The notes beneath the pieces were generated by a model. That model worked only from the letters and a program-made list of their open reading frames with translations. It made no database searches and was not told the DNA's origin. From a virus, in the IMG/VR virus record IMGVR_UViG_3300032223_002295, positions 1 through 48,389 of that record: a DNA stretch of 48,389 nt; one strand, given 5' to 3'. Positions within the stretch are counted from its first letter, which is position 1. The number at the start of each line of letters is the position of its first letter. The position numbers and the translations under genes are program-made. Shown here piece by piece: positions 22,506 through 47,657 of the stretch.

Positions 22506-25500
22506 ATGTCTGATTTTGTTCATTTGCATGTCCATTCGCATTACTCGCTTATGGATGGTTTAAATACACCTCATGAATTACTTGAGGCTGCAAAAAATCA
22601 AGGTCAGGCATGTTTAGCTATTACAGACCACGGCACTTTATCTTCTCACAGAGATATGCAGATTGGTGCTAAAGAATTAAGCATGAAGCCAATACTTGGT
22701 CTTGAAGCTTACATTTCAGAAACAGACCGTTTTGACAAAAGAGCGGTAGCAAAAAGAGATGACAACACCTCTCTTTACTCTCACATTATCTTATTAGCAA
22801 AAAATGATTTAGGTTTAAAGAACCTTCAAAAACTTTCTCAAATTGCTTGGACAGAAGGTTATTATCATAAGCCACGCATTGACATGGAAGCCCTCTTTGA
22901 GTTTGGTGACGGTATAATTGTATTGTCTGGTTGTATGGGTGGAATTATTTCTAAAGCCATTGAGCGTGGAGATAATGAAAAGGCAAGAGAATATACTAAG
23001 ATGCTTAAAGATCGTTTCGGTAAAGATTTTTATATTGAAGTACAAGCACATAACCCAGACAATTTAAATTCTGCTTTGTTTGCATTAGCAGATGAATTTG
23101 AGGTGAAGCCAGTTGCTACAGGAGACTGTCATTTTGCAGTTAAAGAGGAGAGGGATTTGGAAGAACTCCTACTCATACTCTCAACAAAACCTACGCAAAA
23201 CAAAGAAGCAGATTACGCAAGTGGTCGTGCACAATCTAATATTATTGACCGCTTTGATCATCTTTATCCCAATCGCCCTATTTCTTTCGCTGACATTAAC
23301 GTTTATATTCAATCCTATTCTGAAATTAAGATGGACTTTGAAAAAGCGGGTGTTACAAGAAAAGATATCTATTCATCAACACTAGAGATTGCAGATAAGA
23401 TTGAAGCTTATGATTTTCATGAAAACCTTGATTTACTTCCAGTACCAAAAAAGAATGCATTAAAAACATTACAAGAAATGTGCAACAAGTCTCTAATAGA
23501 TATGGGGTTAAATAATGAGGCTTATACAGAAAGACTTGAAGAAGAACTTAAAGTCATCAAAGACAAGAATTTTGCTAGTTACTTTCTCGTTGTTAGTGAT
23601 ATGGTTAATTGGGCGAAGCAGAATGAAATTCTTGTTGGGCCAGGCCGTGGGTCAGCAGCAGGATCGCTAGTATGTTATTTATTGGGCATTACGGAAGTAG
23701 ACCCAATTAAGTTTGACCTTTTGTTCTTTAGATTTATTAATCCAGAACGTAATGACTTTCCAGATATTGATACAGACTTCATGGACCGTCGTCGTGGTGA
23801 AGTAAAAGATTACCTTAAAAAGAAATTCAAGCATGTTGCTTCTATTTCTACGTATACTTATTTTAAAGATAAGGGAGTTATTCGTGACGTTGCTAGAGCA
23901 TTTTTGGTGCCACTTGGTGAAGTTGATAAAGCACTTAAGGGTGTTGAGACGTTTGAAGAATATGAATCTTCCCCAAGTACAGACGAATTTAGAAAGAAAT
24001 ACCCAGAAGTAACTAAATATGCTTCAATGTTGCGTGGAAAAATTCGTTCAAATGGAATGCATGCAGCGGGTGTTGTTGTAGCAAAAGATGATATTAGCAA
24101 GTATGTACCAATTGAAACACGCAAAGATCCAAACGAATCAGTTTCTGGTCGCATTCCAGTAGTTGCTTATGACATGGAACAAACAGCAGATCTTGGTTTA
24201 ATTAAACTTGACGTGCTTGGATTAAAAACACTTTCAGTTATTGATGATGCTTTAAAAACTATTGGTCATATTAAAAAGAAAAACATTAATATTAAAGAAA
24301 TACCACTTGATGATTCAAAGGTATTTGAAATGCTTTCAAACGGATTTACAAAAGGTGTGTTTCAGGCGGAAGCAACGCCATACACAAATTTATTGATGAA
24401 AATGGGTGTAAGCACATTTGAAGATCTTGCAGCCTCTAATGCATTAGTACGTCCAGGTGCCATGAATACGGTTGGAGGATCGTATATAAGACGTAAAAAA
24501 GGTGATGAGATAGTAACTTATGCACACCCAATTATGCAAGAATTTACAGCAAGAACCTATGGAGTTATTATTTATCAGGAACAGGTTATGCAAGCTTGCG
24601 TATATTTGGGCGGGATGTCATGGGCTGATGCTGATAAAGTAAGAAAGATTATTGGAAAGAAAAAGGATGCAAGTGAATTTGATGCGTATAGAGATCAATT
24701 TGTTAAAGGTGCAAGTAAGCACATTACTCAAGAAGATGCAGAAAAATTATGGCATGATTTTGAAGCACATGCGGGTTATTCCTTTAATCGTTCTCACGCT
24801 ATTGCTTATTCTATGCTCTCTTATTATACGGCTTGGCTTAAGCATTATTATCCTCTTGAATTTATGTTTGCGGTTCTTAAGAATGAAAAAGACAAAGATG
24901 CAAGAACAGACTACCTCCTTGAGGCTAAGCGATTGGGAATTAAGGTCTTATTACCCCATGTAAATGAATCAGAATTAGATTTTAGTATTCAAGGTAATTC
25001 AATTCGTTTTGGTTTGTCTAACATTAAATATATTTCAGATAATATTGGTAGCAAGATAAAAGCATTAAGACCATTTAATTCATACAAAGAATTTACAGAA
25101 AAAGCTGGAGAAAAAGGAAGCGGTATTAATTCAAGGGCAATTGAATCTCTCAACATGATTGGGGCTGCTGCATTTTCAGATAACAAACGTAGTGGTACAG
25201 AAAATGAAAAGCTTTATGAGTATCTTGGTATACCAAAGTTTGATACAGGAAAATTAACTCCTAAAATTAAAGCACAAGTTAATCCTTTAGAAGATTTTCT
25301 TGAAGAAGGTTGCTACGTGCTCCTGGCTATGGTTAAATCAATCAAAAAAGGGCAGGGCTGGAGCCGTGTTGAGTTGGTAGATGATACAGGATCAGTTGGT
25401 ATATTTCACAGCGAAAATACTCAAATTGAAACTGGAATGATGTACTTCTTTTTGGTTGGCGACAATCGCATTCATAAGTATGTTACAATTAATGATGTTG

Positions 25501-25784
25501 TTGAAAAAATTGACGACCCTTTTGTAACTTGGCTTTACAAAGATAAATTAAAGATTGATGACGGTAAAAGATTGGTTCTAGATTTTACACATTATAAGAC
25601 AAAAGCCAACAAGATGATGGCACATATTATTCTTTCGGATTCGGAAAAGAATTTAGAAAGAGTCATTGCATTCCCTAAAATGTACACAACTACACTTGGC
25701 AAAATGAAGCCAGGAACTATTTGTGATCCAGCAATTGCAAGAATGGATGACGGAACACTATATGTAAAGGAGGTGACAATATAA
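22506..25784 (+). CDS. dnaE: DNA polymerase III alpha subunit (C-family, DnaE type)
   Basis: This 1092-aa protein is nearly full length for DnaE. An N-terminal PHP domain carries 'HVHSH' (8-12) and 'DHG' (41-43). The palm has 'GPGRGSAAGS' (378-387), the catalytic 'PDIDTDF' (D422, D424) and the third Asp in 'IKLDVLGL' (D569). A helix-hairpin-helix and OB-like region follow (about 840-1000). It replicates the phage genome; no sliding clamp or clamp loader is seen in the window, so host ones may be used. The stop overlaps the next ATG. Confidence 0.95.
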   Translation: MSDFVHLHVHSHYSLMDGLNTPHELLEAAKNQGQACLAITDHGTLSSHRDMQIGAKELSMKPILGLEAYISETDRFDKRAVAKRDDNTSLYSHIILLAKNDLGLKNLQKLSQIAWTEGYYHKPRIDMEALFEFGDGIIVLSGCMGGIISKAIERGDNEKAREYTKMLKDRFGKDFYIEVQAHNPDNLNSALFALADEFEVKPVATGDCHFAVKEERDLEELLLILSTKPTQNKEADYASGRAQSNIIDRFDHLYPNRPISFADINVYIQSYSEIKMDFEKAGVTRKDIYSSTLEIADKIEAYDFHENLDLLPVPKKNALKTLQEMCNKSLIDMGLNNEAYTERLEEELKVIKDKNFASYFLVVSDMVNWAKQNEILVGPGRGSAAGSLVCYLLGITEVDPIKFDLLFFRFINPERNDFPDIDTDFMDRRRGEVKDYLKKKFKHVASISTYTYFKDKGVIRDVARAFLVPLGEVDKALKGVETFEEYESSPSTDEFRKKYPEVTKYASMLRGKIRSNGMHAAGVVVAKDDISKYVPIETRKDPNESVSGRIPVVAYDMEQTADLGLIKLDVLGLKTLSVIDDALKTIGHIKKKNINIKEIPLDDSKVFEMLSNGFTKGVFQAEATPYTNLLMKMGVSTFEDLAASNALVRPGAMNTVGGSYIRRKKGDEIVTYAHPIMQEFTARTYGVIIYQEQVMQACVYLGGMSWADADKVRKIIGKKKDASEFDAYRDQFVKGASKHITQEDAEKLWHDFEAHAGYSFNRSHAIAYSMLSYYTAWLKHYYPLEFMFAVLKNEKDKDARTDYLLEAKRLGIKVLLPHVNESELDFSIQGNSIRFGLSNIKYISDNIGSKIKALRPFNSYKEFTEKAGEKGSGINSRAIESLNMIGAAAFSDNKRSGTENEKLYEYLGIPKFDTGKLTPKIKAQVNPLEDFLEEGCYVLLAMVKSIKKGQGWSRVELVDDTGSVGIFHSENTQIETGMMYFFLVGDNRIHKYVTINDVVEKIDDPFVTWLYKDKLKIDDGKRLVLDFTHYKTKANKMMAHIILSDSEKNLERVIAFPKMYTTTLGKMKPGTICDPAIARMDDGTLYVKEVTI

Positions 25785-26044
25785 TGGCAGACATCGAAGT
25801 TACAGGTACAGCACCTGAAGGCACACCAGCAGCAGTTGTAAACGAAGAGCTTACAAACGTTCAGATTACTCTTGAGCAGATTTGTGCAGCAATTCTTAAC
25901 AAGATTGGTACAACAGAGATTCCAGTTGCTGATATCCTTAAGGATTACAGCGGTAAGACAATCTCAATTAATCATGATGACGAGAAGAACGTTCTTCTTT
26001 TCAACTTGGTAGATGCACCAGCAGCTCCAGCAGAAAACGCTTAA
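25784..26044 (+). CDS. Hypothetical protein (86 aa) with very strong ribosome site
   Basis: The ATG sits in a TAATG junction preceded by AAGGAGGTG, the best anti-SD match in the window, so the protein is probably abundant. The N- and C-termini are Ala/Pro/Thr-rich and flank a compact 55-residue core. No family is recognised. Location between polymerase and RecA suggests a replication accessory role. Confidence 0.55.
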   Translation: MADIEVTGTAPEGTPAAVVNEELTNVQITLEQICAAILNKIGTTEIPVADILKDYSGKTISINHDDEKNVLLFNLVDAPAAPAENA

Positions 26045-36164: not shown

Positions 36165-36238
36165 GCGAAAATAGCTTAGTTGGTTAAAGCCCCGAACTCA
36201 TAATTCGGTAATCGTAGGTTCGAGTCCTACTTTTCGCA
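36165..36238 (+). tRNA. tRNA with CAT anticodon (Met, or Ile2)
   Basis: Cloverleaf: acceptor GCGAAAA/TTTTCGC, D-stem GCTT/AAGC, anticodon stem CCGAA/TTCGG with loop CTCATAA, T-stem GTAGG/CCTAC with loop TTCGAGT, discriminator A. The CAT anticodon is read as elongator Met unless C34 is changed to lysidine (Ile). No encoded CCA. Confidence 0.88.
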
Positions 36239-36241
36239 CAA

Positions 36242-36354
36242 GGCTATATGCAGCACACCTTAGAATGGTATAGTTACATATAACAGACCCGCAGCGTAAG
36301 AGTTCGGGTGAGATAGGGCAGCGTCATTTGGTGCTGGAATATCTGCATATAGCC
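36242..36354 (+). ncRNA. Predicted structured RNA of unknown class between tRNA genes
   Basis: A perfect 12-bp closing stem pairs 36242-36253 (GGCTATATGCAG) with 36343-36354 (CTGCATATAGCC). Inside are three further hairpins: GTTA/TAAC (36273-36284), ACCCG/CGGGT (36287-36309) and CAGC/GCTG extended by two G-T pairs (36319-36336). The whole is a four-way-junction fold. It has no T-arm signature and no plausible reading frame. It lies between tRNA-CAT and tRNA-Gln and could be co-processed with them. The class is not recognised. Confidence 0.55.
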
Positions 36355-36359
36355 CCCAA

Positions 36360-36430
36360 TCTCAGATCGTCTAATGGTAGGACATCGCCCTTTGGAGGCG
36401 AGTATCTTGGTTCGAGTCCAGGTCTGAGAG
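36360..36430 (+). tRNA. tRNA-Gln (TTG)
   Basis: Cloverleaf: 7-bp acceptor TCTCAGA/TCTGAGA, D-stem GTCT/GGAC, anticodon stem TCGCC/GGCGA with loop CTTTGGA, T-stem CTTGG/CCAGG with loop TTCGAGT, discriminator G. Anticodon TTG. It starts 5 nt after the structured RNA. Confidence 0.88.
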
Positions 36431-36436
36431 CAAAGA

Positions 36437-39370: not shown

Positions 39371-39517
39371 ATGGGTAGCAAGAAAAATCAAATGAAGATT
39401 GCAGCAGCACTAGAAGTTCGTATTGCAAAGATGCCTAAAGGCTCTGGGTTTAAGAAACCAGGATCAATGAATAAAAAGAAAACTGGTTATATCAAGATTG
39501 CACCGTTAAATAAATAA
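39371..39517 (+). CDS. Small basic protein (48 aa)
   Basis: A short gene after 'CTAACAAAGGATAAAA'. The product is very Lys-rich (about one residue in four), with no acidic cluster, and ends in a TAATG junction with the following gene. Nucleic-acid binding is likely from charge alone. It shares its leader type with the secreted-protein and groES genes. Confidence 0.55.
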   Translation: MGSKKNQMKIAAALEVRIAKMPKGSGFKKPGSMNKKKTGYIKIAPLNK

Positions 39518-40206
39518 TGCCAAAGATTAAAGTATCTGCAGAGGAAGAGTTTATTTCTCCTATTCAACCTGCAAAAAAATATGTTCCTAATTGGTATTCA
39601 AAAGCACAATCTTTTATTGGTGGCAAGCCATCGTATGTAGATGGTAAAACAAATGCTGCAATTAAAAGTTGTGTACCGTTTATGGATTCTTATTTAACAG
39701 GATATACAGCAGAACTTTGGTGTGACATACAAGTTGTACAAAAAGTTACAGGACCAGAATTAAGATTTAGTAAGGATTTACTTGCACCAGTTGGCTCAAG
39801 AAGTCCAGATATCAGTCATCCAATGCCAACTCCAAACGGCTATGATGATACACATTTTGTTTGGCATAGCCCTTATTTAATTAAAACTCCTCCAGGATAT
39901 AGTTTATTGATTACACAACCATTAAATCAATATGATCTGCCAACTTTTACACTATCAGCAATTGTTGATGCGGACAAAGAATTGTTCCCAAATGGCAGAA
40001 TACCATTTTTTATTAAAAAAGGATTTGAAGGTGTTATAGAAAAAGGCACACCTATATTTCAAGTTATCCCATTTAAAAGGGAAAGCTGGGAGTCTGTAGA
40101 TTCCCCAGAACTCAGAAAAGAAGCGGATCAAAGGTCATTCAATGTAGCCACAGTCATGTATGGCTGGTATAAAAAGAACGTTTGGACAAAAAAGGAGTAT
40201 AATTAG
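39517..40206 (+). CDS. Paralogous phage protein A (DUF6065-like, 229 aa)
   Basis: The N-terminus has 'PNWYSKA' and a 'CVPFMDSYLTGY' block. The centre has 'KTPPGYSLLITQPLNQYDLPT' reduced here to its elements (K-T-P-P-G-Y-S, P-L-N, D-L-P), and the end has 'GFEGVIEKGTPIFQVIPFKRE'. The protein encoded at 46926 has the same blocks in the same order, so the two are paralogs. Related beta-rich proteins of unknown function are found in aquatic phages. It is not secreted and has no enzyme motif. Confidence 0.55.
   Translation: MPKIKVSAEEEFISPIQPAKKYVPNWYSKAQSFIGGKPSYVDGKTNAAIKSCVPFMDSYLTGYTAELWCDIQVVQKVTGPELRFSKDLLAPVGSRSPDISHPMPTPNGYDDTHFVWHSPYLIKTPPGYSLLITQPLNQYDLPTFTLSAIVDADKELFPNGRIPFFIKKGFEGVIEKGTPIFQVIPFKRESWESVDSPELRKEADQRSFNVATVMYGWYKKNVWTKKEYN
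40191..40203 (+). promoter_or_regulatory. Composite ribosome site / -10 box (AAAGGAGTATAAT)
   Basis: AAAGGAG (40191-40197) is followed directly by TATAAT (40198-40203), which overlaps the upstream stop codon. The ATG at 40211 is 7 nt past the -10, fitting a leaderless start; the SD-like part would be 13 nt away, too far to be optimal. Confidence 0.45.
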
Positions 40207-40210
40207 ATAT

Positions 40211-40456
40211 ATGGTCAATATATCTAAATACATAAAGAATAACCCAGCCAGACTATCTGGCTATGTCTCAGCACTTATCTTGTGGGGACATAAATATTTC
40301 CCCGCAAAGTTAATTGACCTTGTTATACCATCAATTTTATTTATGGTAGGGCTTGGAGAATACAGTCAGCGTGTGGAAGATAAGAAAACAATAAAAGCTA
40401 TTTACTTAGAACCTGACCCAAATAGACCAGATGAAGAAATGATCAAGGAGATATAA
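40211..40456 (+). CDS. Small membrane protein (81 aa)
   Basis: The ATG after the -10 box is chosen over an in-frame TTG inside the previous gene. A hydrophobic segment (about residues 32-50, 'LIDLVIPSILFMVGLG') is preceded by a weaker one (15-25) and followed by a charged C-terminal tail, as in holins or small inner-membrane accessory proteins. It is coupled by TAATG to dps. A second holin/antiholin is possible but unproven. Confidence 0.5.
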   Translation: MVNISKYIKNNPARLSGYVSALILWGHKYFPAKLIDLVIPSILFMVGLGEYSQRVEDKKTIKAIYLEPDPNRPDEEMIKEI

Positions 40457-40899
40457 TGGAAGAAAAAGATTTAATTGACGCTTTAAAAACTTTAAAATCA
40501 ATGGTAGTAAAAATGTATGTTCAATCACACGGATATCATTGGAACATTGAGGGTTCAGGTTTTCCCCAATATCATAAATTTTTATTAAAAATTTACTCAG
40601 ATGTTTATGAATCTATTGATCCAATTGCAGAAAACATACGTAAATTGGGTGCAAAAGCTCCTTTTGGATTAAAATCTTGGCTTGAAGGCAGTGCTTTAGA
40701 AATTAATGATTCAGAAAATCTTGATGCAAGAACTATGTTACAAGAGCTAGTTCAAACAAATACAGTAGTTTTAGCAATGCTTAGAAGAACATATGACATA
40801 TCTAATGAATTAGATGAACAAGGAATCTGTAATTTTATTGCTGGTAGAATTGAGCAACATAAATTTTGGCAATGGCAGTTGACAGCAACACTCAAATAA
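40456..40899 (+). CDS. dps: Dps-family ferritin-like protein
   Basis: This 147-aa four-helix protein has the inter-subunit ferroxidase ligands H28, H40, D55 and E59. Their spacing (12, 15 and 4) is the same as in canonical Dps (H31, H43, D58, E62). 'HGYHWNIEG' is the family signature. Dps oxidises Fe(II) with peroxide, stores iron and can coat DNA. There is no long Lys-rich tail, so DNA binding is less certain than iron detoxification. Coupled to the small membrane protein upstream. Confidence 0.9.
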   Translation: MEEKDLIDALKTLKSMVVKMYVQSHGYHWNIEGSGFPQYHKFLLKIYSDVYESIDPIAENIRKLGAKAPFGLKSWLEGSALEINDSENLDARTMLQELVQTNTVVLAMLRRTYDISNELDEQGICNFIAGRIEQHKFWQWQLTATLK

Positions 40900-46706: not shown

Positions 46707-46948
46707 TGTCAGATGGAGCAGTACCGCTACATTTTAGCGAATTAGAAAAGCTTGTAACAGAGGTTGCAGGGGAACTACTAGAACACTGGGCTATTAAGGG
46801 TCGCTATACAGAAGAAGAGCAAGATAAGGCAGCCCAAGATGCTGTTGATGACACTGTATACGTAATCAATTCATATATGATTAAGTTTAATGAATTAATC
46901 GCATTGGAACAGGCCAAGAAGAGTAATGTTCAAATTCAAACAAAATAA
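46706..46948 (+). CDS. Hypothetical helical protein (80 aa)
   Basis: It starts in TAATG and overlaps the next gene by 23 nt. The sequence is helical and acidic ('EEEQDKAAQDAVDDTVYVINSY'-type, broken here), with no motif recognised. Confidence 0.5.
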   Translation: MSDGAVPLHFSELEKLVTEVAGELLEHWAIKGRYTEEEQDKAAQDAVDDTVYVINSYMIKFNELIALEQAKKSNVQIQTK

Positions 46949-47657
46949 GATCAAAGAAGGCGAAATTCACTTTCAGCCTATTGATTCAAACCGATTTTTT
47001 TCAGCTTCACAACCAACTCCAGCGGTAAAACATTTACCACAATGGTATAAAAACATTGAAAGAAATGTAACTCATACACATAAAGATATAGAAGATAAGT
47101 CAAAGTTTAAAATTATCCCTATGGGTACAGTTAAAAAATGTATTCCTGTGTTGGATGCATTTTCCGCTGGTTACATTTATTCTGCACCAATTGAATTATT
47201 TTTTAGCGAAGAAGCACAAGATTTTGCACACAATTCAAATATTGAATTTATTCAAGGTCATGACGGAAGACAATTAGAAGGTTGGGCAGCAGACCCAAGT
47301 TATATTCAAATGGCTTTTAAATGGAGAAATCTTAATATAATTAAAACAGCTCCAGGGTGGTCTTGTTTGTTTACTCATCCATTAAATAGACTTGATTTAC
47401 CTTTTTATACATTGTCAGGTGTTGTGGATACAGATGTACATCCAATGCCAGTTAATTTTCCTTTTGTTATGAAAAGAGGATTTACTGGAAAGATTTTTGT
47501 TGGTACACCTTTAGTACAAATTATTCCATTTAAAAGACAAGATTGGAAATCTGTTACTGATGAGTATGATCCAACAGATCCCGCAGTTCATATAACAACA
47601 AGATTAACTGAAGATATTTATAAGAAAACTTTGTGGAATAAAAAGCGTTACAATTAA
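46926..47657 (+). CDS. Paralogous phage protein B (DUF6065-like, 243 aa)
   Basis: Paralog of the 229-aa protein at 39517. Shared landmarks in the same order are 'P-x-W-Y', 'K-x-C-x-P-x-x-D-[AS]-[FY]', 'T-[AP]-P-G-[WY]-S-[CL]-L-[FI]-T-[HQ]-P-L-N', 'D-L-P-[TF]' and 'G-x-G-T-P-[LI]-[VF]-Q-[VI]-I-P-F-K-R'. Both end in 'KK-x-[EY]-YN'. The N-terminus is longer and Lys-rich. Function unknown; two diverged copies in one genome suggest a heteromer or specialised roles. Confidence 0.55.
   Translation: MFKFKQNKIKEGEIHFQPIDSNRFFSASQPTPAVKHLPQWYKNIERNVTHTHKDIEDKSKFKIIPMGTVKKCIPVLDAFSAGYIYSAPIELFFSEEAQDFAHNSNIEFIQGHDGRQLEGWAADPSYIQMAFKWRNLNIIKTAPGWSCLFTHPLNRLDLPFYTLSGVVDTDVHPMPVNFPFVMKRGFTGKIFVGTPLVQIIPFKRQDWKSVTDEYDPTDPAVHITTRLTEDIYKKTLWNKKRYN

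Follow-up and report, generated by a model that had tools for sequence, protein, structure and literature searches.

Bacterial trans-acting antisense sRNAs are small structured RNAs whose conserved loops are complementary to an RNA made elsewhere. The phage RNA described here resembles them, but it is predicted to pair with 23S rRNA, at its functional core, instead of with an mRNA, and it differs also by several short antiparallel segments and by permuted forms. The C/D and H/ACA guide RNAs likewise pair with short conserved stretches of rRNA, whereas the phage RNA would use several segments at once, and to our knowledge bacteria have no C/D and H/ACA guide machinery. The pRNA of phage phi29, which binds the prohead and is required for packaging, is about 120 nt long and has paired ends. 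Paired ends are common to the family studied here, which lies near packaging genes in many copies; unlike pRNA, it occurs in unrelated phages with a full-size terminase, is complementary to 23S rRNA, and in phage Samisti12 lies 46 kb from TerL.

HDV-like ribozymes have a double-pseudoknot core and cleave themselves at their 5' end. Theta ribozymes, which are HDV-like, are also small structured phage RNAs beside tRNA genes, and their cleavage site often adjoins the tRNAs (PMC10879173). The phage RNA differs from them in its paired ends, own promoters and rRNA complementarity, and matches no Rfam ribozyme. GOLLD and ROOL are described as phage RNAs without an assigned function that often occur close to tRNA islands; they are about 600-800 nt long and form nanocages, and ribosomes were reported to bind GOLLD in pull-downs (PMC12286853). 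The phage RNA, in contrast, has 77-138 nt and no Rfam match. Rfam gave no hit for the RNA, and in the literature listings covered, which took in few subscription papers or preprints, we found no phage RNA directed against rRNA.

Genomic location of the RNA element

The window is the whole analysed stretch of 48,389 nucleotides, a contig from IMG/VR (IMGVR_UViG_3300032223_002295). The RNA element contains 113 nt (36242..36354, + strand, as are all its parts given below) and is located between a tRNA-Met (36165..36239, +) and a tRNA-Gln (36360..36431, +), both predicted by ARAGORN. The preliminary description stated that it exactly fills the gap between the tRNA genes; the position between them was confirmed, but 2 nt remain on the tRNA-Met side and 5 nt on the tRNA-Gln side, so the gap is nearly and not exactly filled. 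The predicted fold of the element has -40.6 kcal/mol against -27.6 ± 3.2 in 200 shuffles (z -4.1), none of which was as good.

Against Rfam 15 the window element gave no match at gathering level; at E<=10 there were just the two flanking tRNAs and below-threshold matches, and in the relatives tRNAs alone passed the gathering scores. The GOLLD and ROOL models did not match the element (113 nt against about 600-800 nt). The flanking tRNAs were scored by ARAGORN and the tRNA model RF00005, while the element was not. With no Rfam family matched, the original reading holds: a structured RNA of the phage, unclassified and set in a tRNA array. On the complement of the tRNA-Met (36165-36239, - strand), RF04354 (Plastid-ycf2 leader) reached 57 bits with a cutoff of 65.7; this family seems to be an antisense tRNA.

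A phage-type TerL is encoded on the 48-kb contig at 33256-35112, along with genes for tail, helicase, primase and UvsX-like proteins and a DUF7455 gene, a domain that we take to be associated with Actinomycetota. Among the rows listed at 59% or more, the window TerL showed 59-66% identity with the TerL of Streptomyces phages, so the host of this phage is likely an actinobacterium. Two DUF6065-like genes (39517-40203 and 46926-47654), one of them just below the family cutoff, and a ferritin-like gene (40456-40896) were also found in the window.

Distribution and transcribed strand

Through pattern scans of IMG/VR, 152 viral loci were obtained, 30 of which, most lying within open frames, lacked the end stem and were discarded as chance matches (L017, L020, L040, L041, L043, L046, L050-L053, L057, L059, L060, L074, L081, L091, L092, L112, L113, L117, L118, L126, L130, L132, L141, L144, L148, L150, L152 and L157). 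The family therefore comprises at least 122 phage loci. Several search patterns required core letters, so for copies that only those patterns detected, the constancy of the core is in part a product of the search. A scan of genome contigs with a single pattern gave six matches (L065-L070), all by chance, and thus no cellular copy.

Both ends were located in 113 copies, including that of the window, with lengths of 77-138 nt. A tRNA precedes the RNA at 0-2 nt in 82 of these copies, a TATAAT-like box is found within the preceding 25 nt in 29, and two have neither; downstream, a tRNA begins within 12 nt in 72/113. The identity of the neighbouring tRNAs varies between copies; the element thus moves between tRNA positions as a unit. 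At one locus (L038, 319-2580) 23 phage tRNAs are densely arrayed, and one more tRNA adjoins a standalone copy of the RNA. In 93 of 126 entries, the 126 including the two chance matches L017 and L050, TerL precedes the element on its strand by 16 nt to 6 kb; in Samisti12 the distance is 46 kb.

Adjoining tRNAs are on the same strand as the RNA. For copies without an adjoining tRNA, we searched for a -10 box with at most one mismatch, 4-10 nt before the end stem P1. It was present upstream in 28 of the 30 copies tested (31 minus one at a contig edge, since full flanks were required) and on the other strand in two, and the matches fall at 6-8 nt; among the tRNA-adjacent copies a box on the other strand was detected in 2/82. 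The tRNA at 0-2 nt, or the TATAAT box mostly 6-8 nt upstream, thus identifies the transcribed strand, and as the -10 boxes are on the RNA strand, the transcript is antisense to 23S rRNA.

Secondary structure

The end stem P1 is formed by GGCTATATGCAG (36242..36253) and CTGCATATAGCC (36343..36354), which are exact complements over 12 bp, as the preliminary description had reported. In 46 distinct window-type sequences, two-sided changes were found at all 12 pairs and 99.8% of 551 cells were paired, and pairing fell to 23-44% when the partner was slid by 1-3 columns. The covariation score was 0.680, compared with 0.306 for shuffled and 0.06-0.14 for slid partners. In a wider set of 71 distinct rows 847 of 852 P1 cells pair, in a table where P1 was placed by the longest stem, which favours pairing, and where one row (L122:4253-4363) is a false match, kept here and left out of the later 23S comparisons. 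By these sequence comparisons P1 is proven by covariation. A chance origin of the stem, already considered improbable at the outset, is excluded because the stem is conserved with two-sided changes among relatives, and the fold surpassed all 200 shuffles. The compensatory changes in relatives and the lack of an Rfam match at gathering level are also the two points on which the preliminary description had made its proposal depend.

Within P1, the internal helix P2 joins CCUUA (36258..36262) to UAGGG (36314..36318), a pairing that comparison of relatives supports. An A-U to G-C change converts it to CCUUG/CAGGG in 9 of 47 rows; it is unpaired in L048 and partial in L044 and L045, and the minimum-energy fold of L047 also contains it. 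Further parts are hairpin P4 (CCCG...GTAAGAG...CGGG, 36288..36308), hairpin P5 with the conserved CATT..GTGC (36319..36336) and the conserved GGAAT (36336..36340). The loops TATAGTTAC, CATT, GTG and GGAAT are near-invariant in the 46 distinct window-type sequences. The element had been drawn as three small hairpins in a cloverleaf-like four-way junction. The structured character and the end stem remain, but the single-sequence fold of the window copy has a fourth, longer hairpin, and since relatives support the long-range P2, the element is not a cloverleaf.

Four readings of single motifs were rejected. The GUAAGAG loop, which presumably resembles a loop of bacterial RNase P, is missing from other family groups; the core taken as a tRNA D-arm is explained better by P2 and the 23S match; the window copy has no CsrA-type GGA motif; and a Met-Val-stop mini-frame (AUGGUAUAG) is at odds with a spacer of 1 to 5 nt among relatives.

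Complementarity to 23S rRNA

Apart from one mismatch and one bulge, the core of the window copy, ACCTTAGAATGGTATAGTTAC (36257..36277), is complementary to actinobacterial 23S rRNA at about 1910-1931, which comprises the helix 69 loop and the following strand. The reverse complement of actinobacterial helix 69, with its Actinomycetota-type CCAU, is the family core, CCUUAGnAUGG-UAUAGUUAC. The 23S rRNA of Tsukamurella (Actinomycetota), used as reference in place of that of the true host, has GGTAACTATAACCATCCTAAGG where E. coli has CGTAACTATAACGGTCCTAAGG, and CCTTAGGATGGTTATAGTTACC, from the reverse complement of the Tsukamurella sequence, equals the family core; all 80 cores tested were closer to the Tsukamurella than to the E. 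coli version. For the window core the predicted duplex with helix 69 reached -25.6 kcal/mol, while 500 shuffled cores had a mean of -6.7 and a best value of -15.9, none being as strong, and the next best unrelated tile of Tsukamurella 23S gave -16.8 kcal/mol.

Three further segments of the window copy match the rRNA downstream: GGAAT is the complement of ATTCC at about 1938-1942; GCGTCATTTG, within P5 (36319..36336), is complementary to about 1967-1976 through 7 Watson-Crick and 3 G-U pairs; and TGAGATAG (36309..36316) is complementary to about 1990-1997 over 8 bp with one G-U, which is weak for the window copy alone. Many relatives have more conserved loops of this kind, which follow one another in antiparallel order and are complementary to about 1938-1942, 1962-1974 and 1990-2010. 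Similarity to antisense 23S runs, with gaps, across about 100 nt. On this pairing map P1 falls between the segments that would bind at about 1938 and about 1931.

With the RNAs rotated at P1 and compared with antisense 23S, 27 of 30 representatives scored above all 1196 null windows, which were taken on both strands from bacterial genome loci, E. coli 16S and other parts of the Tsukamurella rRNA locus. The remaining three were reached by one (L001), three (Jada) and three (Annadreamy) null windows. When the core was masked, nine of the 30 were reached by at most 23 of the 1196 windows (L137 0, L047 1, L128 6, L045 7, L094 9, L104 10, L096 13, L054 19 and Samisti12 23); the window copy (L007) outside its core was not above chance, 268/1196 windows being as good. 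In an unselected both-strand scan of the 48 kb, the element ranked first of 6432 windows against antisense 23S (60.0, next 50.8). The same scan placed the RNA first in Samisti12 and TunaTartare, second in Muntaha and StarPlatinum, third in Jada and outside the top four in Annadreamy.

E. coli 23S as target gave a hint of helix 69 with mixed statistics: against 60 shuffled 23S several window-type RNAs were not separated from chance, the window copy being matched by 35/60, and in a larger null with the core masked 7 of 1546 windows were at or above the target. Taken at the level of sequence, the comparisons demonstrate a complementarity of the conserved core to 23S helix 69 beyond chance. Two points count against pairing with 23S: the core shares bases with P2, so P2 pairing and 23S pairing should compete, and in finished ribosomes helix 69 is folded.

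Copies in Streptomyces phages and circular permutation

In L093, L095 and L114 the motifs were found in the rotated order GUGC...CUUAG...AUG...UAUAGUUAC, in L093 within a new end stem. A core search of GenBank phages led to Streptomyces phages, and in all seven of those read (Jada, TunaTartare, Annadreamy, Muntaha, StarPlatinum, Yaboi and Samisti12) the RNA lies between the endolysin gene and the portal operon, where it has both a -10-like box and a hairpin resembling a terminator. These copies precede the phrog_11584-portal operon and lack P1; six of the seven have additional spacer bases, and the pair at C1914 is broken in every one, both points against the antisense reading. Considering that P1 lies between the 1938- and 1931-binding segments, rotated forms could work without it.

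In GenBank, 126 Streptomyces phage records match the RNA, and query coverage is at least 80% in 114 of the 127 matching records. Among the matches listed, no annotated feature was found at the RNA site in the annotated Streptomyces phage records. By these comparisons the RNA is a real, widespread and unannotated phage family with a core complementary to actinobacterial helix 69. A stretch of 19 nt in Klebsiella phage RCIP0095 (L161, 2501-2519), ahead of a gene and inside a GGGGUA/UACCCC hairpin, is identical to a portion of the L093 query; this match is probably due to chance.

Proposed function and alternative explanations

Helices 69-71 lie where the large subunit contacts the small one and the tRNAs. 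Helix 69 forms the inter-subunit bridge B2a, and in mycobacteria 50S subunits with disordered helices 68-71 accumulate during splitting (PMC12493154). We lean slightly towards the reading that the element is a trans-acting antisense RNA by which actinobacterial phages control host translation, directed against domain IV (helices 69-71) of host 23S rRNA. The RNA would be released from the tRNA transcript by cleavage, or transcribed from a promoter of its own, and would meet 50S subunits that are free or still immature and whose helices 68-71 are loose. By pairing with helix 69 and its neighbours it may form a clamp on helices 69-71 at the subunit interface, and a clamped 50S would be kept from joining 30S or from maturing; the phage could thereby set how much of the host ribosome pool translates during infection. 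P1 would merely close the loop between the segments binding at about 1931 and 1938, and circular permutation is expected because just the order of pairing segments along the rRNA matters. Both the binding to 23S and the effect on the ribosome are what we infer from the pairing map.

The same complementarity data would fit an RNA that acts as a shield or chaperone of helices 69-71, for instance when host nucleases cut rRNA there in abortive infection, or that aids late 50S maturation. The conserved GGAAU stands opposite AUUCC at about 1938-1942, a site reportedly cut by a mycobacterial MazF toxin, but no defence system is linked to the RNA. The data do not separate shielding from blocking; we consider shielding unlikely and would rather infer a block of joining or maturation. 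That the RNA is a structural part of the packaging machinery, as pRNA is in phi29, might be suspected from the same-strand TerL upstream in 93 of 126 entries, from the position of the Streptomyces-phage copies ahead of the phrog_11584-portal operon, and from the 126 Streptomyces phage records with the RNA beside 127 with a similar TerL, two lists that were not matched record by record. Related phages have most genes in common anyway, though, synteny fails in Samisti12 with its TerL 46 kb off, and the 23S complementarity is left unexplained, which makes a packaging role quite improbable.

The preliminary description had offered a tRNA-like decoy, a Y-RNA-like molecule or a processing element, and a mere spacer of the tRNA array would look similar: 82/113 copies begin 0-2 nt after a tRNA, and the end stem has 12 bp, the joint length of the acceptor and T stems of a tRNA. 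The decoy is not supported, as the element is unseen by ARAGORN and the tRNA model and many relatives are away from tRNAs. Nor is the Y-RNA, for YrlA (RF02553) scored at best 16.3 (L054) and 24.4 bits (L111) where 69 are required, and over tRNA-containing stretches. In 29/113 copies a -10 box replaces the tRNA, the copies in Streptomyces phages possess a terminator but lack P1, the Rfam models for tRNA, YrlA and others gave no match, and a spacer would not need conserved loops; as a group these readings have a very low probability. The tRNA-adjacent position and the permuted forms, permutation being typical of ribozymes, might also recall a theta-like self-cleaving ribozyme that matures phage tRNAs. 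The ends of HDV-like folds are not paired with each other, whereas here both ends pair together; no Rfam ribozyme matched, and copies with their own promoter have no tRNA to cut, so that we hardly believe in a ribozyme. The gapped similarity to antisense 23S over about 100 nt could have arisen from reverse-complement rDNA captured by an ancestral phage and now functionless. Against such a relic, P1 is kept through compensatory change, the loops are fixed, promoters and terminators are retained, and a different RNA of a Rhodococcus phage keeps the 23S match; its likelihood is minimal.

Most explanations of how lytic phages take over host ribosomes invoke proteins. If the antisense reading is true, a phage RNA that pairs with a highly conserved part of the large subunit would be a new mode of takeover, and also a natural antisense ligand of helix 69, which is a known drug site. 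The proposal is readily testable, since the RNA lies unannotated in more than 100 GenBank genomes of culturable Streptomyces phages.

Similar RNAs in other phages

An unannotated intergenic RNA of Rhodococcus phage Peregrin (L168, 16331-16531; 31330-31530 of the phage) ranked first of 2648 windows in 20 kb against antisense 23S (76.0, next 50.8). It lacks the family core motif yet matches the same rRNA region, and it lies between a -10-like box and a strong terminator hairpin. Considering the actinobacterial family and Peregrin, together with unproven leads in intergenic stretches of Arya, TS33, TPWB06 and a Sextaecvirus, we might speculate, with somewhat less than even confidence, that antisense RNAs against 23S helices 69-71 are a general phage strategy of more than one origin, which would clamp the subunit interface and take over host translation.

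For each of the four leads 0/998 null windows were as good, a comparison that is not fair because they were selected by BLAST, in a search that returned mainly 23S genes; chance is therefore not excluded for them. Arcanobacterium phage TPWB06 (L185) and Staphylococcus phage vB_SpsS-DH5 (L186, Sextaecvirus) have in common GAACTATCCGACGAGGGATTTCGCTACCTTTCTAGGATTAAG, near antisense 23S about 1924-1957. Matches of the GGAACTTACCCGACAA type, to antisense 23S about 1934-1960, were found in Enterobacter phage Arya (L184), in the gap at 25350-25945 after a tRNA-Arg, and in Hafnia phage TS33 (L187), between the lysin and the next gene. Terminator-like hairpins are located downstream of both of these intergenic matches.
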